Shown: positions 1 through 37,484 of the stretch, in pieces
Layout of the letters: each line of letters begins with the position of its first letter
Position numbering within the stretch: the first letter of the stretch is position 1
Source of the DNA: Bacteroidota bacterium
GTDB lineage: Bacteria; Bacteroidota; Rhodothermia; Rhodothermales; Bin80
Assembly (NCBI GenBank): GCA_028875125.1
Contig: JAPPGC010000043.1
Coordinates: 1 to 42,273 of the forward strand
Reading direction: 5' to 3'
Length of the DNA: 42,273 nt
Notes under the pieces: model-generated
What the model saw: the letters and a program-made list of their open reading frames with translations, nothing else
Databases searched by the model: none
Told to the model about the DNA's origin: nothing
Made by a program: the position numbers and the translations under genes

Positions 1-137
1 TTTTTCAAATTTTGCTGATTTGGACTTGCATAAATGGTAGGGAGTCCCCCCCTTCATTGATATTTTGCACTCCGTTGGTTCAGAACGCAAAATCATAAGG
101 TGTTGCATTTCATACTTGAACTGGCGACCGCACCGAT

Positions 138-1214
138 TCATGGTTCAGTCTGAGGAGATATAAATCTATAGCGGAGAATCACTGGGTTACCAATTTCGCC
201 ATTGGGAAGCGATTCATGTTCGCCAACAGCATAAAAATATCCACCGCCAGCTGCCAGAGGGTGAACCGAGGAAATCGTGCTACGTGCCGGGAACTGTCCT
301 GAATTGCTAGCCACGCTTAAACCGAATCCTTCACCCGCTCGAACATCGCTTGTGCTCCACCTACTGTCTAGGTCGACATAGACAACCATCCGTGTTGATC
401 CATTGAGCGCAAAAACTGCAATTGTAGACGGATACTCTTTTTGCAGTTCGAGTTTATTTTCTGGGGAAGCGTCGGGGAAATCTCTCGGCCTCCATTCGAA
501 AAAGTCGGGTTCGTATTGGATCCTTGACAAACTTGATTCAACGGGTGTCGCGTCCATGCTTTCGGCGTATATGTAGTATGCACCGTCGTCGAAGCAATCA
601 ATGGTCCTACCTCGTTGTCCCGCAAAATATGTATTCAGGAAAGTCAGGCGTGGCGGTTCGACAGGAACCTCTCCAAACGTCTCAAGCATTGGAGAGTACA
701 CATTGGCCATAGCCTGTTCTTCGAAATGAACCTGCTGAGCGAATATTGAGTCCTTATATGTGCAAAACGCTTTCGCCCAGGGCATCAACATTCTTTTTTC
801 GGCAAAGCAAGTTCCGTCAGCTTCAAAGATGACGGCACCGCCAGCAAATCGCATAGTCATTATGCGGCCATCTCCAATGAAACGAGTACTCCATGGATAA
901 AAGTCCGCGTCGTCAGGCAGGCATTCAGGTGCGGAATAGGAACGTATATAGCTTCCTGACGGGGAAAACAGGTAGGTACTGTTAGCTAAATGGTCGGTTA
1001 CCAGAATTTCTTCCCGTTCACTGACGTCAAGAAACGCGACCTGTCCAATAAGCATGATCGGATCCAGTCGCAGCGTATCCTGCAGCACAAACAGTTCGTC
1101 AAAGGGCACTAATGGCGAGCGAACCGTGGCCACCTTTGTATTCTCCAAAAGGCAACCTGCCACAGAAATGGCCAAAAGAAAGATGAGCAGTTGAGCGGAT
1201 ATCCTACCCGGCAT
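138..1214 (-). CDS. 6-bladed beta-propeller-like lipoprotein (paralogue of the gene at 36384)
   Basis: 358-residue predicted lipoprotein of unknown function. The N-terminus is a short basic stretch, a hydrophobic segment and a lipobox VAGC with the acylated Cys at residue 21, so it should sit in the outer or inner membrane facing the periplasm or outside. The rest has the repeated beta-strand character of Bacteroidota 6-bladed beta-propeller proteins (strand-turn pieces such as FLDVS, RFIGDGRIM, STRMVVY). It aligns from end to end with the lipoprotein at 36384-37484, sharing PLxPFxxLF near the N-terminus, FLDVS, RFIGxGR, FPAR and GNPxILRY near the C-terminus. The ATG is the only start that precedes the signal peptide. 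It is divergent from the Fic gene and appears monocistronic in the window. A role in ligand binding or as a partner of a surface complex is inference only. Confidence 0.8.
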   Translation of the reverse strand: MPGRISAQLLIFLLAISVAGCLLENTKVATVRSPLVPFDELFVLQDTLRLDPIMLIGQVAFLDVSEREEILVTDHLANSTYLFSPSGSYIRSYSAPECLPDDADFYPWSTRFIGDGRIMTMRFAGGAVIFEADGTCFAEKRMLMPWAKAFCTYKDSIFAQQVHFEEQAMANVYSPMLETFGEVPVEPPRLTFLNTYFAGQRGRTIDCFDDGAYYIYAESMDATPVESSLSRIQYEPDFFEWRPRDFPDASPENKLELQKEYPSTIAVFALNGSTRMVVYVDLDSRWSTSDVRAGEGFGLSVASNSGQFPARSTISSVHPLAAGGGYFYAVGEHESLPNGEIGNPVILRYRFISPQTEP

Positions 1215-1432
1215 ATTATAATGTGCCTCTTGCTAGTAAAGTATTCGACTGGATTTAGCTTGTGTTCCGAGTGAGGCGCGTTACGTATGGGACCGCACTA
1301 TTCTTAAGATTGAAGAAGCGCTGTCTTTACCTTCCATTTTAAGTGGTACGGAAGCTTTGTTTCGCCTTGCCGGGCTTTGGGCACATATTTCCATACTAAC
1401 AGGACATCATGGAGTGGCAGCCGGCAGAATTT

Positions 1433-1461
1433 AAATAAAGAAAAGGCCCTTTTCTTTATTT
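1433..1461. promoter_or_regulatory. 14-bp perfect inverted repeat upstream of the Fic gene
   Basis: Left arm AAATAAAGAAAAGG (1433-1446), one central C, right arm CCTTTTCTTTATTT (1448-1461): a perfect palindrome ending 33 bases before the Fic start. The symmetry and position fit an operator for a dimeric DNA-binding protein; the Fic protein itself has a C-terminal winged helix. It could instead act as a terminator-like hairpin, but it lies far from the end of any plus-strand gene. Confidence 0.5.
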
Positions 1462-1470
1462 TTGAGAAAT

Positions 1471-1493
1471 CAAAATTAAGTTTCTTGATTTTG
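1471..1493 (+). promoter_or_regulatory. 10-bp inverted repeat touching the Fic start codon
   Basis: CAAAATTAAG (1471-1480), loop TTT, CTTGATTTTG (1484-1493). Nine of ten positions are Watson-Crick pairs and one is a G-T wobble in RNA. The right arm ends one base before the ATG at 1495, where a ribosome binding site would normally lie, and no purine-rich Shine-Dalgarno is visible. It may be a second operator half or an RNA hairpin that limits translation. Confidence 0.4.
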
Positions 1494-1494
1494 C

Positions 1495-2673
1495 ATGAAT
1501 CATCACGAGATGTGGTCTCGAATAGGAAGCGAGGTTGTCATTTCTTCTGTGGGGGAGAAACGTGTTAAGGCATATCTGCTACCGCCGCTTCCACCAGACC
1601 CACGAGTTAACATGGAGATGTTAACCGCCAAATTAGAAAAGGCCCATCTGTTCATGGGGAGACTAGATGGCATGACAGCAATTATGCCAGATATTCCAAT
1701 TTTCCTAAACACTTATGTCAGGCAGGAGGCGTTGTTGTCATCACAGATTGAAGGAATCCGATCATCACTATCTGATCTTCTACTTTTTGAAGTTGACAGT
1801 GCGCCTGGGGTTACCCTAAATGATGTACAGGAAGTGTCTAATTATGTGGCTGCGATGAAGCACGGATTAAAGCGTATTGCAGAAGGTTCCCCATTAAATC
1901 AGCGCCTGATGCGGGAAATACATGAAATACTCTTTTCCAAAGGTCGTGGCAGCACAAAACTTCCGGGGGAATTTAGACGGTCGCAAAATTGGATCGGAGG
2001 ATCTCGTCCAGGGAATGCCCTCTATGTTCCTCCTCCGACAGAACATGTCGTTGATTTGATGGGCGATCTGGAGAAGTTTATTCACACAGATTACCCCGAA
2101 TACCCCACACTAGTAAAGGCTGGCCTCATGCATGCCCAATTTGAAACAATTCATCCATTCCTAGATGGAAATGGGCGCTTGGGAAGATTGCTAATTACGC
2201 TCTTATTGTGCGCTAGTGGACTTCTTAGACATCCGATTCTCTACCCCAGTCTGTACTTCAAGACACATAGATCCTATTATTACGAGCTTTTGCAGCGCGT
2301 GCGCACCCATGGTGATTGGGAAACATGGCTTGAATTCTTTTTGGATGGTGTGATCCATACGTCAGAGCACGCCATCGAAACTGCCAAAAAAATCCTTGGG
2401 TTGTTTGAGAGAGATTATGAGAAGATTAAACAGTCTGGACAACTTGTGGCATCATCACTGCGGTTACATAAGGTACTGCAGGAGCGTCCAGTGCTTCCGG
2501 CATCGTATGCCGTCAGGAGTGCAGGCATTTCGTTACCGACAGTGTACAGTGCTGTCGGGCACCTTCAAAGCATTGGCATCGTGAAAGAAGTAACTGGGAA
2601 AAGGAGGAACCGCGTCTTCGCATATGACGAGTATGTTCGGATTTTGAGCAAGACCAGTGATCCTGTTGCATAA
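1495..2673 (+). CDS. Fic family protein, class II, with C-terminal winged helix
   Basis: 392-residue Fic/DOC protein. Fic enzymes usually transfer AMP from ATP to a hydroxyl side chain of a target protein. The catalytic motif HPFLDGNGRLGR is complete at residues 220-231, with the base His220 and the phosphate/metal-binding Asn226 and Arg228. An N-terminal Fic_N region holds the inhibitory motif SxxxEG (Ser82, Glu86, Gly87), which marks a class II enzyme that holds itself inactive through its own alpha-inh helix, so no separate antitoxin is expected and none is visible beside it. Residues about 330-385 look like a winged helix-turn-helix (SLPTVYSAVGHLQSIGIV plus a wing). Two inverted repeats sit just upstream, which suggests autoregulation. 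The start is the ATG that gives the usual N-terminus ahead of the PLPPxP segment; no Shine-Dalgarno is seen. The target is unknown. Confidence 0.93.
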   Translation: MNHHEMWSRIGSEVVISSVGEKRVKAYLLPPLPPDPRVNMEMLTAKLEKAHLFMGRLDGMTAIMPDIPIFLNTYVRQEALLSSQIEGIRSSLSDLLLFEVDSAPGVTLNDVQEVSNYVAAMKHGLKRIAEGSPLNQRLMREIHEILFSKGRGSTKLPGEFRRSQNWIGGSRPGNALYVPPPTEHVVDLMGDLEKFIHTDYPEYPTLVKAGLMHAQFETIHPFLDGNGRLGRLLITLLLCASGLLRHPILYPSLYFKTHRSYYYELLQRVRTHGDWETWLEFFLDGVIHTSEHAIETAKKILGLFERDYEKIKQSGQLVASSLRLHKVLQERPVLPASYAVRSAGISLPTVYSAVGHLQSIGIVKEVTGKRRNRVFAYDEYVRILSKTSDPVA

Positions 2674-3088
2674 GGATTCTGACCTTGTGGGTAAGACTGG
2701 CTTCCAGCCCCACCGTAGTAAGATTTGTTGAAATTGACGAGCTCGGGAAGGGGTCAGAAGAACGCAAAGACTCTTGATTGACGCAAGCAAGTAGTTTTTG
2801 GGTTTAAGGTGGACGCGGCCTGCCTTTATACAAGCATGACGGACTATTGGGAGGTTCTTGCGGAGCCTTCGTATCACGGGCAGATCCTAGTGATGACTTT
2901 TCCTTACATCGGAAACTTCGGTACACACGATAAGAATACCAAGGCAGCTTAACCTCTGGATTCTGCTTTGGTCGTTGAACATTTTCCTATGAGTACTTCA
3001 TCTTTCTGGACAAGAATCTCTCAATAACATGTAGGGGTTACCTACCCGGTCATTTACGTAACTTGCCGTAGAAATTCACATAATTCCG
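2674..3088. other. intergenic region, no gene recognised
   Basis: About 415 bases between the Fic and methyltransferase genes. A nested hairpin (outer GTGGG/CCCAC, inner CTGG/CCAG) spans 2687-2713, 14 bases after the Fic stop; it lacks a following T-run, so it is only a weak terminator candidate. The open frames here are antisense extensions with no recognisable protein features. Confidence 0.4.
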
Positions 3089-3718
3089 ATGACCTGCTGT
3101 GCTTCTGCTGACGCCTTCTTTAATGATACCCACGCTAAGCGTGACCTTCTCTGGTACAGACGCTTCGGCCCGCTACCCTCGGCACGCAAGATATTGCGTG
3201 CGCTAGGGGACGTTCATAACCGAAGCTTCATTGATGTTGGAGCTGGTGTAGGTGCGATCACACATGGCGCGTTGTTGCTTGGTGCGAAACATGTGACCGT
3301 CGTGGACGCCTCCAGTGCCTACCTGCAAACCTTGCTCAAGGAGGCCCGACTACAAAAGCACACCGACCGCATCAATACCTATCACGGGGATTTTGTTGAA
3401 ATCGCACCTACCTTATCAAAAGCAGATGTTATTACGATGGACCGCGTGATCTGCTGTTATGAAAATGTTACCGGTCTGCTTGAGGAAGCGTGCAAACGAG
3501 CCGCATGGCGTATTTGTATGTCCTTTCCTCGTCGAGCGTGGTGGTCCAAAGGCGCAATCCAGGGCTTCAATCTCGTGCAGCGCGTGCGAAAACATGCATT
3601 TCGGGTTTATTACCACGATCCAGACTACGTGGATCAGTGTCTTGCAGATAGTGGCTTTGTACCTGTGAAGTTTGACAAATCCATACTGTGGAGTGTGAGG
3701 CTATACGAACGACGGTAA
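3089..3718 (+). CDS. class I SAM-dependent methyltransferase
   Basis: 209-residue soluble methyltransferase of the Rossmann type. Motif I, the SAM-binding glycine loop FIDVGAGVGAITHG, is at residues 47-60; the acidic end of strand beta2 is VVDAS at 71-75; GDF at 100-102 and the motif IV-like ADVITMDRVICCYEN at 112-126 follow. The DRVxCCY signature and the N-terminal Cys-rich start place it near a family often annotated as methyltransferase-domain or Mg-protoporphyrin O-methyltransferase-like proteins, but no other tetrapyrrole gene is in the window, so the substrate is unknown. Its stop codon is directly followed by the ATG of the phosphodiester-glycosidase lipoprotein, with no bases between, so the two are almost certainly co-transcribed and may be translationally coupled. 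Confidence 0.85.
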   Translation: MTCCASADAFFNDTHAKRDLLWYRRFGPLPSARKILRALGDVHNRSFIDVGAGVGAITHGALLLGAKHVTVVDASSAYLQTLLKEARLQKHTDRINTYHGDFVEIAPTLSKADVITMDRVICCYENVTGLLEEACKRAAWRICMSFPRRAWWSKGAIQGFNLVQRVRKHAFRVYYHDPDYVDQCLADSGFVPVKFDKSILWSVRLYERR

Positions 3719-4480
3719 ATGCGTTGTCGATCGTTATGGATCTGTTTTTTCATACTGGCTGCCTCGCTGCTGACGGGCTGTAGTTCGCTCAGACAGGCAG
3801 TACAAAACCGGCCTTGTGCCCTGGATTCATCACAACCTTATGACACGGTGCACATCAACCCTGCACTGCACAACATAACACTGCACTGGAAAAACCCGGA
3901 AACCGACGAACCCTTCAAAACGATAAACAATCTGGTTGAGTGGCTGGAGAATACAGGTCACTCAATTGTTGCAGTAACCAACGGCGGCATTTTTGAACCT
4001 GGACTTGTACCCACAGGACTATATGTGGAAAACGGCCACGAATTGCAGCCCTTAAACCTTGATGACGGGTATGGCAACTTCTACTTGAAGCCCAACGGTG
4101 TATTCTTCGTTCGAGACGGCCATTTTGGTATTGAGGAGGCTACACACTTTGGCGAAGGAAAGACCGAAGTAGATTTTGCACTGCAGTCAGGCCCCCTGAT
4201 CCTGCAAGACAACCAGATACATCCTGCCTTCACCCCAGGCTCCAAGAACTGTCGCCTGCGCAGCGGCATCGGGGTATCTCCAAATGGACACGCGATACTT
4301 GCGATCAGCAACGGGGCTGTCAATTTTATCGACTTTGCGACCTGGTTTCGGGACACTGCGGGAATGGTCGACGCACTCTACCTAGACGGAGCGATCAGCA
4401 CACTGTACAGGCGTGAGCATCCGAGTATCTCGGAGGAGGTTTATGCTGGATTTCTTGCGGTAACTCGAAAGAGGGAGTAG
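3719..4480 (+). CDS. phosphodiester glycosidase-family (NAGPA/DUF2233) lipoprotein
   Basis: 253 residues. A signal segment ends in the lipobox LLTGC (Cys21), giving a periplasmic or surface lipoprotein. The body matches the NAGPA/DUF2233 fold: AVTNGGIFEPG about residue 82, TGLYVENG, the FYLKPNGVFFV strand, LQSGPLIL, RLRSGIGVSPNGHAILAISNG, and ALYLDGAISTLY near residue 220, which corresponds to the conserved LDGG-S motif of the family. Relatives remove GlcNAc from a phosphodiester in eukaryotes; in bacteria the substrates are largely unknown and may be glycosyl-phosphate polymers. The ATG immediately follows the stop of the methyltransferase gene. The stop lies one base from the 3' end of tRNA-Gln on the other strand. 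Confidence 0.85.
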   Translation: MRCRSLWICFFILAASLLTGCSSLRQAVQNRPCALDSSQPYDTVHINPALHNITLHWKNPETDEPFKTINNLVEWLENTGHSIVAVTNGGIFEPGLVPTGLYVENGHELQPLNLDDGYGNFYLKPNGVFFVRDGHFGIEEATHFGEGKTEVDFALQSGPLILQDNQIHPAFTPGSKNCRLRSGIGVSPNGHAILAISNGAVNFIDFATWFRDTAGMVDALYLDGAISTLYRREHPSISEEVYAGFLAVTRKRE

Positions 4481-4481
4481 T

Positions 4482-4553
4482 TGCCCCGCCAGGATTCGAA
4501 CCTGGAACCTCCTGGTCCAGAGCCAGGCGCTCTGCCAATTGAGCTACAGGGCA
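4482..4553 (-). tRNA. tRNA-Gln(CTG)
   Basis: The reverse complement folds as a full cloverleaf of 72 bases. The acceptor stem is TGCCCTG/CGGGGCA with one G-T pair, the D stem GCTC/GAGC, the anticodon stem CCTGG/CCAGG with loop CTCTGGA (anticodon CTG at positions 34-36, reading CAG), and the T arm CCAGG-TTCGAAT-CCTGG. No CCA is encoded. It is convergent with the lipoprotein gene ending at 4480. Confidence 0.95.
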
Positions 4554-4977
4554 GCGGGGACGTTTATTCCATGTTGCTCAAATTGGTTCCAAACAGAGCC
4601 CCAATCCAGCGTAGCACCGAGTCCCTATGAGACCCCCTCCCTCCCCTGACAGATAAAACACAGCCTGCATCACTCATTACACAGACCGAGGTCATCGGGG
4701 CTAACCTCACCTCTGGACTCCTTGTCCGGCAATGCTATTGAAATTCAGCATCTTTGGGGGCGCATATCCTTGGAGGACACAGCACGCTGATTTTCCGGTC
4801 TTTCACAGTCCATTGCCTCGTTGCATGCTCACACTCTGCAACGATAAGATCTGACACAGCCTCCACACCCGTTCAGCAGGCGAACACAAAGATGCCTCCC
4901 GCGGTCCGAATCCATCAATCCAAGACTGCAGGCTTGCTCCACAGTTGAATCTCGGAGTGACCCGCAATATGCCTGAA
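4554..4977. other. intergenic region, no gene recognised
   Basis: About 424 bases between the 5' end of tRNA-Gln and the 3' end of the M16 protease gene. It must contain the tRNA promoter (minus strand). I see no convincing ORF, terminator or repeat. Confidence 0.4.
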
Positions 4978-7812
4978 TCAGGGCTGCTCGGGAAAAAGAG
5001 TAACCTGCACGTAGCGATCGGTCAACCATTCTGTGACGGCTTGTTGGAGATCTTCTGCCGTCAAATCATCCACAAGCTCACTGTAGCTAAGGATGTCCAG
5101 TGGTTGCGAAGCACTATCTGAGTAGTACGTGCTACGGAGTGCACTCAGCCAGAATCCATTCTCCTCAAGACTGACGGTACGGGCCTGACGCTGTTGCTCT
5201 TTTACCCGTGCTACATAATCTTCTGAGACCCCATTTTCTTTGATTTCCTCGATAGTCTCGAATACGGCATTCGTTAATTCTTTTGCGCGTTCAGGGTCGC
5301 AGCCAAAAGAGATCGAAAAACTGTATGTTTCCCGAGGACGCCGCAGCGGCGATGCATTCACACCGGCACCATAGACACCGCCCCGCTCCTCTCGCAATTC
5401 TTCGAACAAAATAATATCCAGAAGCATCTCCAGGGATTCCATTTGATGACTGGCCTTTCGCGAGGCCTCATAGGATCCGGTGAAAGTGATATTGACTCGG
5501 CTCTGAGGCTCTTCTCCTTTGTAGACAGTTTTGACAACTGTCCCTTCCGGGGTTTGCCGGTTTACGTCCAGCCATGTTTCTTCCCGGTCCGTTGCAGGTA
5601 GTGTACCGAGGTACGTCTGCGCTAGTGCAGTCAACGTATCCGTATCGAAGGCTCCGACGAAGATGAATACAAAATCATCCATATCCACAAATCGCTCTTG
5701 ATATAATTGCAGCGCAAGTCCCATATCTACTGCGTCTAGATCTTCCATTTTGGTAGGTCTGTAGCGGGGATGATTCATGTAGAGTGCCGTACGAAGCGTG
5801 TCGCTGAACGCAGCACCCGGGGAATTCTCCCGATTGGCCAGAAAAGTGCGATTCAAATTGATAAATGACTGGAATGTAGACGAGTCCAAACGTGCTTGTG
5901 TGGCACGTAAATGGATCAACTGAAAAAGTAGTTCGAGATCTTCCGGCGACGCCTGGCCACTGAATCCCTCAAATAAAGTGCTAATAGACGCAGACACAGA
6001 CGCCCTCTTTCCTGCGAGACTTTTGCGCAACTCCGTTTCATCAAACAGCCCAACCCCGCTGCTGCTTACCACTAACGCTGCAAATCTGGCAGTAGAGAAG
6101 TCATCATCACTGTACAGTGATGTCCCACCTTCGCTAAACGAGGTGAACCGAACTTCGTCTGCACGAAAATCTGTCGGCTTCATCACGACACGAATGCCGT
6201 TTGACAGGGCAATCTCCGTAACTCCTAGTTCGGGGATGGAGTCTTGACTCAGGACTTCAACTGGGGTTAGTACCTCTTCAAATAGTGGAATGTCAAGGGT
6301 GGTATCGATGTATGGCTCTACCACAGTACCATCATACTCATACTGCTCAAAGGTACTTGCCAGCATCTCTTCGGTAAGCCATTCCAGTGATGGTTTCTCT
6401 GGAATATTCACGGTCACAGCCCGATCTTCGCTACTGAGCGCTTCCGACAGATACGTGCTTACTTCTTCAAGTGTGACGGTAGGCATAAGCATCTGTGCAA
6501 GTAGGTAGTCGTTCACAACTCCTGGAATTGGGGTGTCTTCCAGAAAGTGATTCACATATGAAAACACAAGTTGGGCTGATGGAGTGTTTTCGCGCTCATT
6601 GTAGTCTTCTTCACGCAAGCGTAGGTTCAATTCTTTGTATCGCGAGAACTCTCCTGGGGTAAAGGGATGCTGTTTGGCCCGTTCTGCTTCCAGGATCACG
6701 GTGCGAAGTGCAGCAACCAGGCTGTCTTCGTTTGCATACGTCGTTAAATTGAATTGGGAAACACCTCGAACGATCTCCCCTGCATTGGCTACAGCAATGA
6801 GGAAAGGAGCACGCGTACCGTCCTCTGCAATCTCACTAAACCGCTGGTTCAGCATTCCCATCGCCAGTGCTCCGACTAAACGCTGGCGATAGTCAGCAAC
6901 GGTTTTTAAGGGGAACACCTGCTGTCGATAACCCACCGAAAGTGTCGGAAGGAACCCATACTCCACATCACTCACAACCTTGTAACGCGTCTCCATGTAG
7001 GGCACCTCAAATGTCGGACGCTCCCTCGGATTCTCGTGTGGTTCAATCGTGGCAAAGTGCTCTTCAACCAAGGACTTCATAGTTGGTACATCCAAAGCCC
7101 CAACGACAACAACCGCCATCAAGTCAGGCCGGTACCATGTTTCGTAATAGCGACGCACGGCCTCGTACGAGCTCTGTTTAATCACGAGAGTGTCACCGAT
7201 AGGCAACCGCTCAGCATAGCGAGACTCACCGAGAATTACAGGTAACTGCTCGTCCAACATGCGCCCAGCTGCACCACGACCGCTTCGCCACTCCTCTATG
7301 ACTACCCCGCGCTCGTTATCAATTTCCTCGTCGCTCAACGTGGCGTAGGCCGCCCAATCTTCCAACACCTGAAATGCCTTACGTACCACTTCCATGCTGT
7401 CGGTAGGTACTTGAAGCTGATAGACGGTTTCATCGAAACTGGTATAGGCATTGACGTCTGGACCTATCTGCATACCGATTCCCTGCAAAAAGGCCATGAG
7501 GGTTTGCTTGGGGAAGCGCTCGGTGCCATTAAAGAGCATATGCTCTACAAAGTGAGCCAGCCCAAGTTGATCCTCATCCTCCAGTATGCTTCCAGCGTTG
7601 ACCACTAACCGAAGTTCAAGGCGGGACTCTGGCTCGTGATTCTCACGGAGATAGTACGTAATGCCATTGTCGAGTTGCCCAATCGTCACAGCACTATCAA
7701 CAGGAATATCCATATCCAGAGGTGATTGGGCCTGTACATTCACGGCGGAAATGGCGGCCGCAACAAAGCAGGTGGCCAGTGAAATTATGAATGAAGATTG
7801 ACGTGTATTCAT
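4978..7812 (-). CDS. secreted M16 (pitrilysin-type) zinc metallopeptidase
   Basis: 944 residues with a signal peptide ending near VQAQ (about residue 29), so it acts in the periplasm or outside. The inverted zinc motif HxxEH is present as HFVEH at residues 87-91, in LAHFVEHMLFNGTERF, with the distal Glu ligand in NERGVVIEE (Glu167). The length fits a full M16 protein of two fused repeats: an active N-terminal half (about 35-480) and an inactive C-terminal half (about 520-930) that ends with the GVYGAG and PRETYSFSISFGCDP strands of M16_C. Members cut oligopeptides, often products of other secreted proteases, inside a closed chamber. It is a single gene with no close partner on its strand; the ATG is unambiguous. 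Confidence 0.95.
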   Translation of the reverse strand: MNTRQSSFIISLATCFVAAAISAVNVQAQSPLDMDIPVDSAVTIGQLDNGITYYLRENHEPESRLELRLVVNAGSILEDEDQLGLAHFVEHMLFNGTERFPKQTLMAFLQGIGMQIGPDVNAYTSFDETVYQLQVPTDSMEVVRKAFQVLEDWAAYATLSDEEIDNERGVVIEEWRSGRGAAGRMLDEQLPVILGESRYAERLPIGDTLVIKQSSYEAVRRYYETWYRPDLMAVVVVGALDVPTMKSLVEEHFATIEPHENPRERPTFEVPYMETRYKVVSDVEYGFLPTLSVGYRQQVFPLKTVADYRQRLVGALAMGMLNQRFSEIAEDGTRAPFLIAVANAGEIVRGVSQFNLTTYANEDSLVAALRTVILEAERAKQHPFTPGEFSRYKELNLRLREEDYNERENTPSAQLVFSYVNHFLEDTPIPGVVNDYLLAQMLMPTVTLEEVSTYLSEALSSEDRAVTVNIPEKPSLEWLTEEMLASTFEQYEYDGTVVEPYIDTTLDIPLFEEVLTPVEVLSQDSIPELGVTEIALSNGIRVVMKPTDFRADEVRFTSFSEGGTSLYSDDDFSTARFAALVVSSSGVGLFDETELRKSLAGKRASVSASISTLFEGFSGQASPEDLELLFQLIHLRATQARLDSSTFQSFINLNRTFLANRENSPGAAFSDTLRTALYMNHPRYRPTKMEDLDAVDMGLALQLYQERFVDMDDFVFIFVGAFDTDTLTALAQTYLGTLPATDREETWLDVNRQTPEGTVVKTVYKGEEPQSRVNITFTGSYEASRKASHQMESLEMLLDIILFEELREERGGVYGAGVNASPLRRPRETYSFSISFGCDPERAKELTNAVFETIEEIKENGVSEDYVARVKEQQRQARTVSLEENGFWLSALRSTYYSDSASQPLDILSYSELVDDLTAEDLQQAVTEWLTDRYVQVTLFPEQP

Positions 7813-25559: not shown

Positions 25560-26598
25560 TCATTCCACAGCGTACACAACTATGGTCGTATCCCCCTCAC
25601 TCCCATATAGACGCTGATTCAACAGGTAAGCATTTTCTATTTCTCCTATGCGGAATGAGTGTTCATAGGTTCCCGTTTGTGCATCATATACATCGACTGC
25701 ATAACCTGGCTCAGACGTCACATATGCGAAAACATAAACCTTTCCCTCGTCTACGCTTATTTCTTCGTGCAGGCTTTGCCCAACAAAATGATATCCCTGC
25801 ATACCACCCATTTCCACAGTCTCCCATTTCGGTGGTTCCACTGTTCCCCAATCTGGGGTTCCACGGACATATTCGATTGTTCCATCCGGCTTGTACTGAA
25901 CGAGAACGGGGAAATAATGCGGAGCAAAGAGCAAGTTGTCCCCGAACGTCGTGGTAAAGCCAAGACAACACGAGCTGCTGCGCCCATGAGGTGCTTGGGG
26001 AACAATACCGAAAGTCACGATATCTGCGCCTTTTCTAGTCTCAAAGAGGTGATCTGTCAGTCCTCCCACCAAAGAATAGGAGCGTCCTCCTGACGTAAAC
26101 TGGTGCCCTACAGGTGAAAATTCAAGGATTTCCGACCGCAAGAAAGCCCCGTCAAGACCAAAATAGGAGATTCTTCGAGCATTTTCATCAACTACGTATA
26201 CAGTTGAATCACTTATCATGCCTAGATCCACAATACTCATGAGTTCTCCCGGTCCAGCACCTATGGTACCGCCATAGGTTGCTACGTAGCTACCCGTAGA
26301 ATCAAAGCCATGAATAGCCACAGCACGTAAGTCGACTACATATGATATTGCCTTGTCGATCAGCTCTGACTGCATTGGGAGTAAATATTAGGTCTCTATC
26401 TTCCGCTTCGCCCGGCAACCTAACAAGTTCTCGTAACCGTACTTCGGACCACACACGCCCAGACGTACTTTGGAGCTCAATGTTTGAGAGAGATAGCATT
26501 TCCACTGAGTTAGTCTCCTGATCTGAAGAACATGCACCGCCGACGAAAAGGAGCACGATAACAACTAGAGATATAGACAGTCCATTCGGGCAGTTCAT
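25560..26598 (-). pseudogene. frameshifted 6-bladed beta-propeller lipoprotein (tandem copy)
   Basis: Two overlapping frames together make one protein of about 346 residues matching the intact neighbour at 26687. The first part (26598 to about 26340) has the lipoprotein signal VVIVLLFVGGAC and continues to VRADRQGNI; the second part resumes with YVVDLRAVAIHGFDSTG in another frame. The neighbour reads VRADREGNIYVVDFRASAIYGF without interruption, so a single extra base near 26340-26347 (GGCAATATCATATGTA on the coding strand, where ATCTATGTA is expected) explains the break. The remainder is well conserved to the last residue (NQRLYGSEGDTTIVVYAVE), so the lesion is recent, a switch-like mutation, or a sequence error. 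The ATG at 26375 gives a fragment without a signal peptide and is not a likely true start. Confidence 0.85.
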
Positions 26599-26686: not shown

Positions 26687-27739
26687 TTATTCCAACGTGT
26701 ATACAACTACGGTTGTATCCGAGGCTAGCCCATATATGCGCTGATTTAACAGATAAGGATCGTTAATCTGACCAATGCGAAACGAGTGCTCATAGTCGCC
26801 AGTTTTGGCATCATACACATCAACGGCTCTATCTGATTCCGAAACAGGGATCATGATGTAAATTTTATCTTCTTCTACGCTTACCTCTCCATGAACATGT
26901 TCCCCTACTGTACGGTATAGCTGGCTACCACCGACTTCTACGGTTTCCCATTCAGGCAACTGAACTTTTCCCCAATCGGGTGTACCTCGGGCATATTCAA
27001 CGGTCCCATCTGGCTTGTACTGTACGAGAACCGGGAGCTTTCTAGGCACGTAGATGAGATTCTTTTCAAACGTTGTTAGCATGCCAAGTAGTCCACCCGC
27101 GCTATGTTGTCCGTGAGGCCCTTTTGGCGTGACACCGAATTCCACAACGTCTGGTCCTTTTTTAGACTCAAACATATGAGACATCCCCTCTACCATTGCA
27201 TAGGATCGACCATCCGATGTGAAACGATATCTTGTTGGAGCAAAGTCGAGGTTCTCCGATCGCAGAAAACTCCCGTCAAGCCTAAAATAGAGCACTCTTC
27301 GCGCCTGATTATCAACCACATAGACGGCCGAATCACCAATAACCCCCATATCCAGAATTCTCCTGAGTTCTCCTGGCCCCGAACCTGAAACTCCACCATA
27401 AGTCGCCATGTATTGACCAGTGGAATTGAAGCCGTATATCGCCGAGGCACGGAAGTCAACAACGTATATGTTGCCTTCACGGTCTGCTCTAACTGCACCC
27501 GGGGCAAGAAACAACTCACCGTCTTCTGATTCGTCCGGCAACCGAAATAACTCGCGCAGCTCCACCTCAGTCCACACACGCTCCTCCGTATCTTGGAGCT
27601 CAATGCCTGACAGAGATAGCATTTCCAGAGAGTGTGGATCTGTATCTGAAGAACACGCAACTCCGACGAAAAGAAGTACGATAACGACCGGAAAAACAGA
27701 TGGTCTATTCGGGCAATTCGTCTTATCCAGCATACTCAT
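26687..27739 (-). CDS. 6-bladed beta-propeller lipoprotein (intact tandem copy)
   Basis: 350 residues. Lipobox FVGVAC preceded by a hydrophobic VVIVLLF segment. The mature protein starts with a linker (LSLSGIELQDTEERVWTEVELRELFRLP) and then shows NHL/6-bladed beta-propeller repeats, for example APGAVRADREGNIYVVDFRASAIYGFNSTGQ, GVSGSGPGELRRILDMGV and AVYVVDNQARRVLYFRLDG; long matching stretches are quoted here only as landmarks. Conserved propeller features are the GNIYVVD strand and the GxGPGE turn. Proteins of this type are numerous in Bacteroidota and usually of unknown function. Upstream tandem order: this gene precedes the frameshifted copy on the minus strand, 88 bases apart, so both may share a promoter in front of 27739. 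Confidence 0.85.
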   Translation of the reverse strand: MSMLDKTNCPNRPSVFPVVIVLLFVGVACSSDTDPHSLEMLSLSGIELQDTEERVWTEVELRELFRLPDESEDGELFLAPGAVRADREGNIYVVDFRASAIYGFNSTGQYMATYGGVSGSGPGELRRILDMGVIGDSAVYVVDNQARRVLYFRLDGSFLRSENLDFAPTRYRFTSDGRSYAMVEGMSHMFESKKGPDVVEFGVTPKGPHGQHSAGGLLGMLTTFEKNLIYVPRKLPVLVQYKPDGTVEYARGTPDWGKVQLPEWETVEVGGSQLYRTVGEHVHGEVSVEEDKIYIMIPVSESDRAVDVYDAKTGDYEHSFRIGQINDPYLLNQRIYGLASDTTVVVYTLE

Positions 27740-36368: not shown

Positions 36369-36383
36369 TCGGGAGATCCATTG

Positions 36384-37484
36384 ATGGATGGCAGTGCCCC
36401 AATTTATCCCGACCTGAGGCCTGGGATCGTTCTGACACTTGCAATGGTGGTGGCAGCTGGCTGCGCCACCTCTGATTCGCCATTGCGAAACACCGTTGAG
36501 TCGCCTCTTGCGCCATTTGGTGACCTATTTGCTTCCCCAGACACGATTCGCTTGGACTCTGAAGTTGTGGTCGGAACCATCGACTTCCTGGATGTGAGCC
36601 GGGAAGGACATTTGCTGATCGCCGATGAAATCTCAAAGAGCACGCATCATTTTTCGGCTTCTGGGAAACACATTCAGACGTACTTAATCGGCACCTGTCA
36701 GCCTGATCACGCGGACGAGCATGCGTGGCTCGCGCGGTTTATAGGCGGCGGGAGGGTTATGCTTGTGGGTCGTGATGGGTCGGTGGCAGTCATGGACGAG
36801 TCAGGTGCTTGCGCAGCGACCGAAATTAGCCGCCCCGTTGGCATAGAGGGAGCCTGCGCCATTGGGGACTCCGTTCTCATGCAGCCAAAGCATGTCCCGT
36901 TCCTCAAGCCCGAGGTCTATGCTGTAACACGCGACTTGGAGAGGCTGGACACATGGCAGATTGAGAAGCCTGAGTTCCCGCGGCTTAACGCACTCTGGAA
37001 GGGCATTGCAGGGCGATCGATGGCGTGCTTTGCAGATGGACCATACTACAAATATTCCGAATGGTCCGATGCTTTGCCGGTATTTAGCCGTGACAATGTC
37101 GCCCAGGTTGATCCGGTGTTTTTCACGAAACGGCTCCGGGACATTGCGCGCGGGCCAGACTTGCTGGCAAAGATTGATGAGATCCATGAGTATCCAACTA
37201 ATTTGGGAATAATGGCCATCGATAGCACCACCCGCATGATCGTTTACACTGAGCTGCCGACAGAATGGCGTCTACCAGATGTGTTCCTTCAATCGGGCAT
37301 CGCGGTGGTCAGCAATGTGGGAGCGTTCCCCGCCCGCACAGCCGTAGTCCCATTTACGCCGATTGGGGCTGCTAACGGCTATATCTACCGCAAGGCCGAC
37401 AATGAGATACTGCCAGATGGAGACTTCGGCAATCCTTTAATCCTGCGCTATAAATTTGTCCCGCCCCCAGATGCAAATCCGTGA
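36384..37484 (+). CDS. 6-bladed beta-propeller-like lipoprotein (paralogue of the gene at 138)
   Basis: 366 residues from the ATG at 36384 (a TTG directly precedes it). The signal segment ends in the lipobox VAAGC (Cys27 of the chosen frame). It matches the lipoprotein at 138-1214 over its whole length: SPLAPFGDLFASPDTIRLD, TIDFLDVS, ARFIGGGRVM, STTRMIVYTEL, FPARTAV and FGNPLILRYKF. It begins 15 bases after the htpG stop, so it is probably the distal part of that operon; its 3' end overlaps a short membrane ORF by 14 bases. Parts of the gene are GC-rich (to about 65%) compared with its paralogue. Function unknown; probably periplasmic or surface exposed. Confidence 0.8.
   Translation: MDGSAPIYPDLRPGIVLTLAMVVAAGCATSDSPLRNTVESPLAPFGDLFASPDTIRLDSEVVVGTIDFLDVSREGHLLIADEISKSTHHFSASGKHIQTYLIGTCQPDHADEHAWLARFIGGGRVMLVGRDGSVAVMDESGACAATEISRPVGIEGACAIGDSVLMQPKHVPFLKPEVYAVTRDLERLDTWQIEKPEFPRLNALWKGIAGRSMACFADGPYYKYSEWSDALPVFSRDNVAQVDPVFFTKRLRDIARGPDLLAKIDEIHEYPTNLGIMAIDSTTRMIVYTELPTEWRLPDVFLQSGIAVVSNVGAFPARTAVVPFTPIGAANGYIYRKADNEILPDGDFGNPLILRYKFVPPPDANP

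Follow-up and report, generated by a model that had tools for sequence, protein, structure and literature searches.

Alternating half-sites in the leader of a SoFic-type Fic gene: a probable operator array of the Fic protein itself

In the window, that is the whole 42,273-nucleotide stretch of contig JAPPGC010000043.1 analysed here, a gene for a Fic protein is preceded by two inverted repeats that lie directly in front of its start codon, and the question raised by this locus is what reads them. The initial annotation had considered binding by the Fic protein or by a partner, or a hairpin that gates translation. The first repeat (1433–1461) is the perfect palindrome described there, with 14-bp arms at 1433–1446 and 1448–1461 (AAATAAAGAAAAGG and CCTTTTCTTTATTT) that are 100% complementary around a single-base centre. 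The second one (1471–1493, arms at 1471–1480 and 1484–1493) is real as well but it is imperfect, since 9 of the 10 arm positions (90%) are complementary. It ends 1 bp before the Fic ATG at 1495, and nothing resembling a Shine-Dalgarno sequence can be seen from 1471 to 1494, in agreement with the earlier remark that this repeat takes the place of the ribosome binding site. The inverted repeat of the 130-bp leader was reached by none of 150 dinucleotide shuffles (p = 0.007, the floor of the test).

The gene (1495–2673, + strand) encodes 392 amino acids with a Fic_N domain at residues 46–125 and a Fic domain at residues 133–238, and ATG 1495 is its likely start, given the many homologues with an ATG at the same aligned codon. 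Its product matches the PADLOC model PDLC03963 SoFic with 389.9 bits (E 3e-117, residues 25–385), while the NCBIfam SoFic equivalog NF046030 gives 162.4 bits and its cut-off of 550 is not reached. Judged by its sequence, the protein belongs to the SoFic family taken broadly and does not count as an equivalog of the Shewanella protein. Codons 1738–1755 (+ strand) encode SSQIEG (residues 82–87), which in class II Fic proteins is called the N-terminal inhibitory motif (PMC9755527). Within it, S82, S83, I85, E86 and G87 are invariant in 16 homologues. Further downstream, codons 2152–2187 (+ strand, residues 220–231) encode HPFLDGNGRLGR, presumably the Fic active-site motif, whose key residues are invariant in the same number of homologues. 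The winged-helix-like tail noted initially was recovered in the AlphaFold model (mean pLDDT 81.4, with block values of 82–92 over residues 311–380), Pfam giving only sub-threshold HTH matches on the C-terminal tail. The predicted winged helix spans residues 318–385 (2446–2649, + strand) with helices at 318–330, 336–343 and 347–359 and a strand at 374–376; the last of these helices is the predicted recognition helix (2533–2571, + strand), and its residue 348 aligns with residue 341 of the Bacteroidales protein, the covarying position described below. The best PDB matches of the model are 7cb8, 3eqx and 3zcn, which comprise a Mycobacterium marinum Fic protein and Shewanella SoFic.

On closer reading of the leader, four half-sites can be placed. 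Box A (AAATAAAGAA, 1433–1442, + strand) is a forward half-site kept in close relatives and forms the palindrome together with the inverted box B (1452–1461, - strand, TTCTTTATTT as read on the + strand), the two being 9 bp apart; in box B, TTTTCTTTATTTT is invariant across six Rhodothermaceae leaders. Box C (AAATTAAGTT, 1473–1482, + strand) is a degenerate forward half-site 40 bp past box A, with which it shares 7 of 10 letters, and makes up the left part of the second inverted repeat. It is weak by itself in the window, and is read as a box because relatives such as L008, L095 and L103 show a clear copy. The right part of that repeat is box D (TTCTTGATTT, 1482–1491, - strand), an inverted half-site that has 9 of 10 letters of box B and lies 30 bp past it. 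The second repeat was also considered as an equal copy of the first and this was rejected, as the geometry differs and boxes C and D fit better. Hence, from their sequence, both repeats are best read as adjacent parts of a single array in which half-sites alternate, and not as two separate elements. The core AATAAAGAA-N9-TTCTTTATT has a single site in the window at up to 3 mismatches (0.00 expected from 100 shuffles) and its sole exact match in the 3.3-Mb genome, where the next match has 3 mismatches.

The relatives of the gene were collected at several distances. A match at E ≤ 0.001, in some cases a weak one, is present in each of the 16 genomes searched in the window's family, its own genome counted; the number of Fic homologues reaches 10 matches in genome G001, 8 in G006 and 7 in G014, with 1 in the window's genome. 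A scan of 84,980 species genomes gave 97 relatives, and the best 80 of the 97 loci were kept. The leaders of Fic homologues with the same tail conserve the repeats when aligned. Indeed, the nearest relatives carry AATAAAGAA, about 9 bp and TTCTTTATT at the same place of the leader; alphaproteobacterial and acidobacterial relatives (55–64% identity) keep the arrangement with drifted letters (AACGAAAGGA and TCCTTTCGTT) and display an additional forward box beside the ATG; and in more distant relatives the letters are quite different and the plan is unchanged. Among Rhodothermaceae, the entire fic leader of L005 (186–688, bin80) stands in about three tandem 181-bp copies with a palindrome in each, and L006 carries, about 180 bp upstream, another palindrome that has diverged.

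In order to quantify the arrangement, each leader was given a three-box score (a box, an inverted box 14–27 bp on and the same box again 39–42 bp on) with a shuffle p value. Left out were L004–L007 as duplicates (same records as L086, L087, L088 and L101), L100, L107 and L109–L114 as weak partial matches, and L034, L043, L059, L066 and L115, whose leader was too short or which had no start. Among the resulting 98 SoFic leaders, 72 show an array at p ≤ 0.05 and 58 at p ≤ 0.01. The corresponding counts are 5 and 1 for 93 stretches taken upstream, 1 and 0 for 98 taken from coding sequence, and 13 and 3 for 151 leaders belonging to other genes of the loci. The remaining 26 SoFic leaders show none at p ≤ 0.05; they include L023 and L046, scored as failures and both showing an array once the start is shifted. 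Of the 58 leaders at p ≤ 0.01, 41 have a period of 41 bp and 15 one of 40 bp. In 66 of 98 loci (3.6 expected), the highest-scoring three-box site of the whole locus is the one at the start of fic. In the window, the leader array is the best-scoring three-box site of the 42 kb; its p value over 100 shuffles (0.04 at 39–42 bp) is no better than that at 27–38 bp (0.01–0.02), because the palindrome of boxes A and B carries the score.

The spacing range of 39–42 bp was picked from the pooled histogram of half-site distances. There, in group 1 (40 leaders), direct repeats at 41 bp occur in 16 leaders where 1.0 is expected, with a lesser peak at 30–31 bp; in group 2 (48 leaders), 18 have repeats at 40 bp and 21 at 41 bp, for expectations of 2.1 and 2.4. 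Inverted pairs peak around 20 bp. With 51 non-redundant loci (< 70% protein identity), 22 reach p ≤ 0.01 at 39–42 bp, and at seven other spacings the numbers are 2, 9, 5, 3, 2, 1 and 0. Two further sets were examined afterwards with this range fixed. The first, twelve loci picked from a listing of 30 among 709 plasmid records with a match, shows the array at p ≤ 0.05 in 9; the R. phaseoli locus and two haloarchaeal ones gave none at this threshold. On one Haloarcula litorea plasmid (L128, 1242–1371), an inverted repeat TGTCCGAT / ATCGGACA stands around a TATA-like stretch upstream of fic, with no three-box array. The second set comes from the order of L071, in which 56 of 393 genomes have a match at E ≤ 1e-80, and of the 49 new Bacteroidales loci examined 43 are positive at p ≤ 0.05 and 32 at p ≤ 0.01. 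Altogether, arrays are present in about ten phyla, including Rhodothermota, Pseudomonadota, Acidobacteriota, Bacteroidota, Spirochaetota, Nitrospirota, the candidate phyla radiation and Desulfobacterota, to which the plasmid loci add Deinococcota and Actinomycetota. The letters of the boxes vary by clade and the spacing is constant.

The position of the boxes relative to a promoter could be assessed in Bacteroidales. The element TAnnTTTG, which we take to be the Bacteroidota -7 element, occurs in the last 70 bp of 42 of 57 Bacteroidales leaders (4.5 expected). In 33 loci mostly three to six boxes were observed in steps of about 20 bp, running from up to about 110 bp upstream through to over the -7 element, and the centre of the closest upstream or overlapping box is at most 14 bp from the element in 29 of the 33. 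This location over or just upstream of the -7 element is, in Bacteroidales, one where a repressor would sit. The same element was also tried as a general promoter of the window's lineage and is not clearly enriched there (2 of 23 genes, 0.9 expected); consensus scans for promoters and terminators gave sites fewer than or no more than in shuffles.

If the Fic protein reads these boxes, their letters should follow its own DNA-binding helix. In 53 loci taken across phyla, box distance correlates with wHTH distance (residues 341–372) once the catalytic domain is accounted for, with a partial r of 0.27 (permutation p 0.001) and a value of -0.03 for the reverse. However, in a sliding test two catalytic windows (145–164 and 185–204) score as high as the wHTH windows, so that this covariation is not specific enough as sole proof. 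In the 49 Bacteroidales loci, the top three of 124 windows of 15 residues, given catalytic distance, are 331–345, 334–348 and 337–351, which correspond to helices 2 and 3 of the wHTH. The best of 316 columns is 341, in the first turn of helix 3, followed by the catalytic columns 63 and 202. A box with GTAAA accompanies lysine at this position in 15 of 16 loci and any other residue in 0 of 33; GAGATA or TTTGAG is seen with asparagine in 3 of 3 loci and without it in 0 of 46. A third rule, by which proline at 340 would go with boxes of the TTAA type, did not hold (0 of 6, compared to 12 of 43).

The association holds when descent is considered. A tree built from the catalytic part (52 rows) requires at least six changes of lysine at 341, the rows with lysine and no GTAAA being L136 and L137. 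In six independent pairs, box and residue switch together in 5–6 of 6 (mean 5.8) and the opposite way never, for a median sign-test p of 0.031, the least possible with six pairs. Moreover, the pair L071 and L076, at 90% identity (94% over the catalytic part), has lysine and asparagine, respectively, at position 341 together with different boxes, while L076 shares both its residue and a TGAGAT-type box with L068 at only 68% identity. In three Rhodobacteraceae loci (L041, L043 and L026) the protein breaks off or changes frame at or before the recognition helix; L041 and L026 have an intact leader array despite the damage.

Given the geometry, the covariation with the protein's own helix and, in Bacteroidales, the boxes over a promoter element, it is very probable that the Fic protein represses its own promoter by binding to it through its tail. 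As judged from the sequences compared, we are thus largely confident that the leader is an operator array of the Fic protein itself, and the repeats, being conserved and changing with its recognition helix, support that part of the initial proposal. The proposal of a partner fared less well. A reading of the boxes by another regulator, whether a partner or a host repressor, has in its favour that many operators are bound by a regulator encoded nearby or by a global one, and that the catalytic columns also correlate somewhat with box sequence. However, no conserved partner regulator was found beside SoFic among the loci examined, the only widely recurring neighbours being type I restriction genes (7 lineages), and the arrays accompany the Fic gene across the phyla and change with its recognition helix. 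The site is also present once in the genome, thus defining no regulon, and a foreign reader is distinctly improbable. As to the neighbours themselves, SoFic lies beside type I restriction-modification genes in L036, L038, L040, L047, L049, L072, L081, L082 and L115. Some Fic genes next to restriction genes (L064, L081 and L082) are without an array of their own, and in these three loci no site above shuffles was seen within 3 kb further upstream.

A role of the repeats in translation is very unlikely, even if the hairpins that would mask the start codon in the fic mRNA and gate its translation can be drawn. Indeed, the + strand of 1425–1500 folds into both of them (-16.2 kcal/mol, z -2.33 versus shuffles), next to a start with no ribosome-binding site in sight, and the second repeat retains some pairs through two-sided changes (3 of 10 pairs, 6 sequences). 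Gating is nevertheless not favoured, because the inner pairs of the first stem are not kept (as many as 4 of 6 close relatives lack the pairing, with the inter-arm distance maintained) and because it leaves the direct repetition at 40–41 bp unexplained; furthermore, arrays of several boxes that extend as far as about 100 bp ahead of the -7 element lie outside the transcript, and the letters of the boxes track a protein helix. An Rfam scan of 1–5000 found no RNA family apart from a tRNA (tRNA-Gln). The strong stem followed by a T-rich run could also suggest an intrinsic, bidirectional terminator, but the neighbours diverge (138–1214 on the - strand, fic on the + strand) so that no upstream gene ends at the palindrome, the terminator scan made no call, and relatives keep arms and spacing rather than a G+C-rich stem, which makes termination an extremely improbable role. 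Finally, the region is AT-rich, where a palindrome could arise by chance or belong to a dispersed repeat; with a conserved, single-copy site that dinucleotide-keeping shuffles fail to reproduce, the odds of this are close to nil.

Coming back to an operator read by the Fic protein, its half-sites alternate in orientation every ~ 20 bp, the same orientation returning after 40–41 bp, and since a step of ~ 20 bp is two helical turns all boxes lie on one face of the DNA. The Fic protein, as a dimer or larger assembly such as known for relatives, would grip at least two boxes through its C-terminal winged helices and shut its own promoter, a negative autoregulation by which an AMPylase of a toxic, anti-phage type (by family) might be kept low. 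As the letters of the boxes change with its own DNA-binding helix, the enzyme is most likely the factor that turns off the gene encoding it. We infer from this physical binding, repression rather than activation, an oligomer on DNA and derepression upon depletion of Fic.

The precedent for self-repression is CccR of Yersinia pseudotuberculosis, which represses its own promoter via palindromic boxes according to EMSA, footprint and a lacZ fusion (PMC9755527). As described in that source, CccR is a class II Fic protein with a C-terminal DNA-binding domain, as is predicted for the window's protein, and is a dimer with boxes in its own leader near -35/-10. The two DNA-binding helices of the dimer are 70.2 Å apart (PMC9755527), which at 3.4 Å per bp would correspond to ~ 20.6 bp, near the box step of ~ 20 bp. 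In contrast, the CccR footprint is given as two 10-bp boxes, AGATAATCAT-N26-ATGATAATCT, whereas SoFic boxes alternate about 20 bp apart with a 40–41-bp direct repeat and number up to six or more in relatives; moreover, CccR is reported as a secreted T6SS effector. CbFic2 of Coxiella burnetii also binds DNA through a C-terminal wHTH, with effects of DNA on its oligomer and enzyme activity; unlike the arrays described here, that work used random DNA with no operator known, and CbFic2 AMPylates host histone H3 (PMC10628234). CccR and CbFic2 are the only Fic proteins with DNA binding that we found in the open literature. SoFic (PDB 3eqx, 3zcn, 3zec, 9tcl and others; PMC3667792) has the same domain order and is among the best structural matches of the window's protein. 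Its DNA binding had, by the account in PMC10628234, not been demonstrated at that time, and no operator or DNA binding for SoFic, hence no self-operator, was found reported in the open literature. For the E. coli Sofic a 47-aa downstream antitoxin, AS1, has been described, whereas a counterpart was not seen as a conserved neighbour in the loci examined. Self-repression through inverted repeats is also described for the phage-defence module of AbiE-type operons (PMC3985639, PMC7319586), with the difference that there the antitoxin is the repressor, while here one polypeptide would be both toxin-type enzyme and repressor.

A further, unlikely extension is that the array would also act as antitoxin and sensor, boxes 20 bp apart holding SoFic DNA-bound and silent in AMPylation until loss of this DNA contact in infection frees the enzyme. 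Phage T5 degrades host DNA. A phage of this kind could thereby free active SoFic and lead to abortive infection, one polypeptide being toxin, repressor and sensor, with DNA as the antitoxin. Sofic protects against T5 according to PMC12249575, which states as open both the means of holding SoFic inactive and its trigger. A self-operator conserved in about ten phyla together with a helix-to-box code would give a direct handle on this regulation, the regulator being probably the enzyme itself. Binding sites should be predictable from sequence and operators for SoFic genes at large, natural pairs such as L071 and L076 point to the residue for exchange, and toxicity and transcription would be tied to one DNA contact.

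Elsewhere on the contig, the gene that diverges from fic (138–1214) has no Pfam match and its product is similar to that of 36381–37484, the two being apparently paralogues. A second pair of similar proteins, apparently paralogues as well, is encoded at 25560–26375 and 26687–27739.
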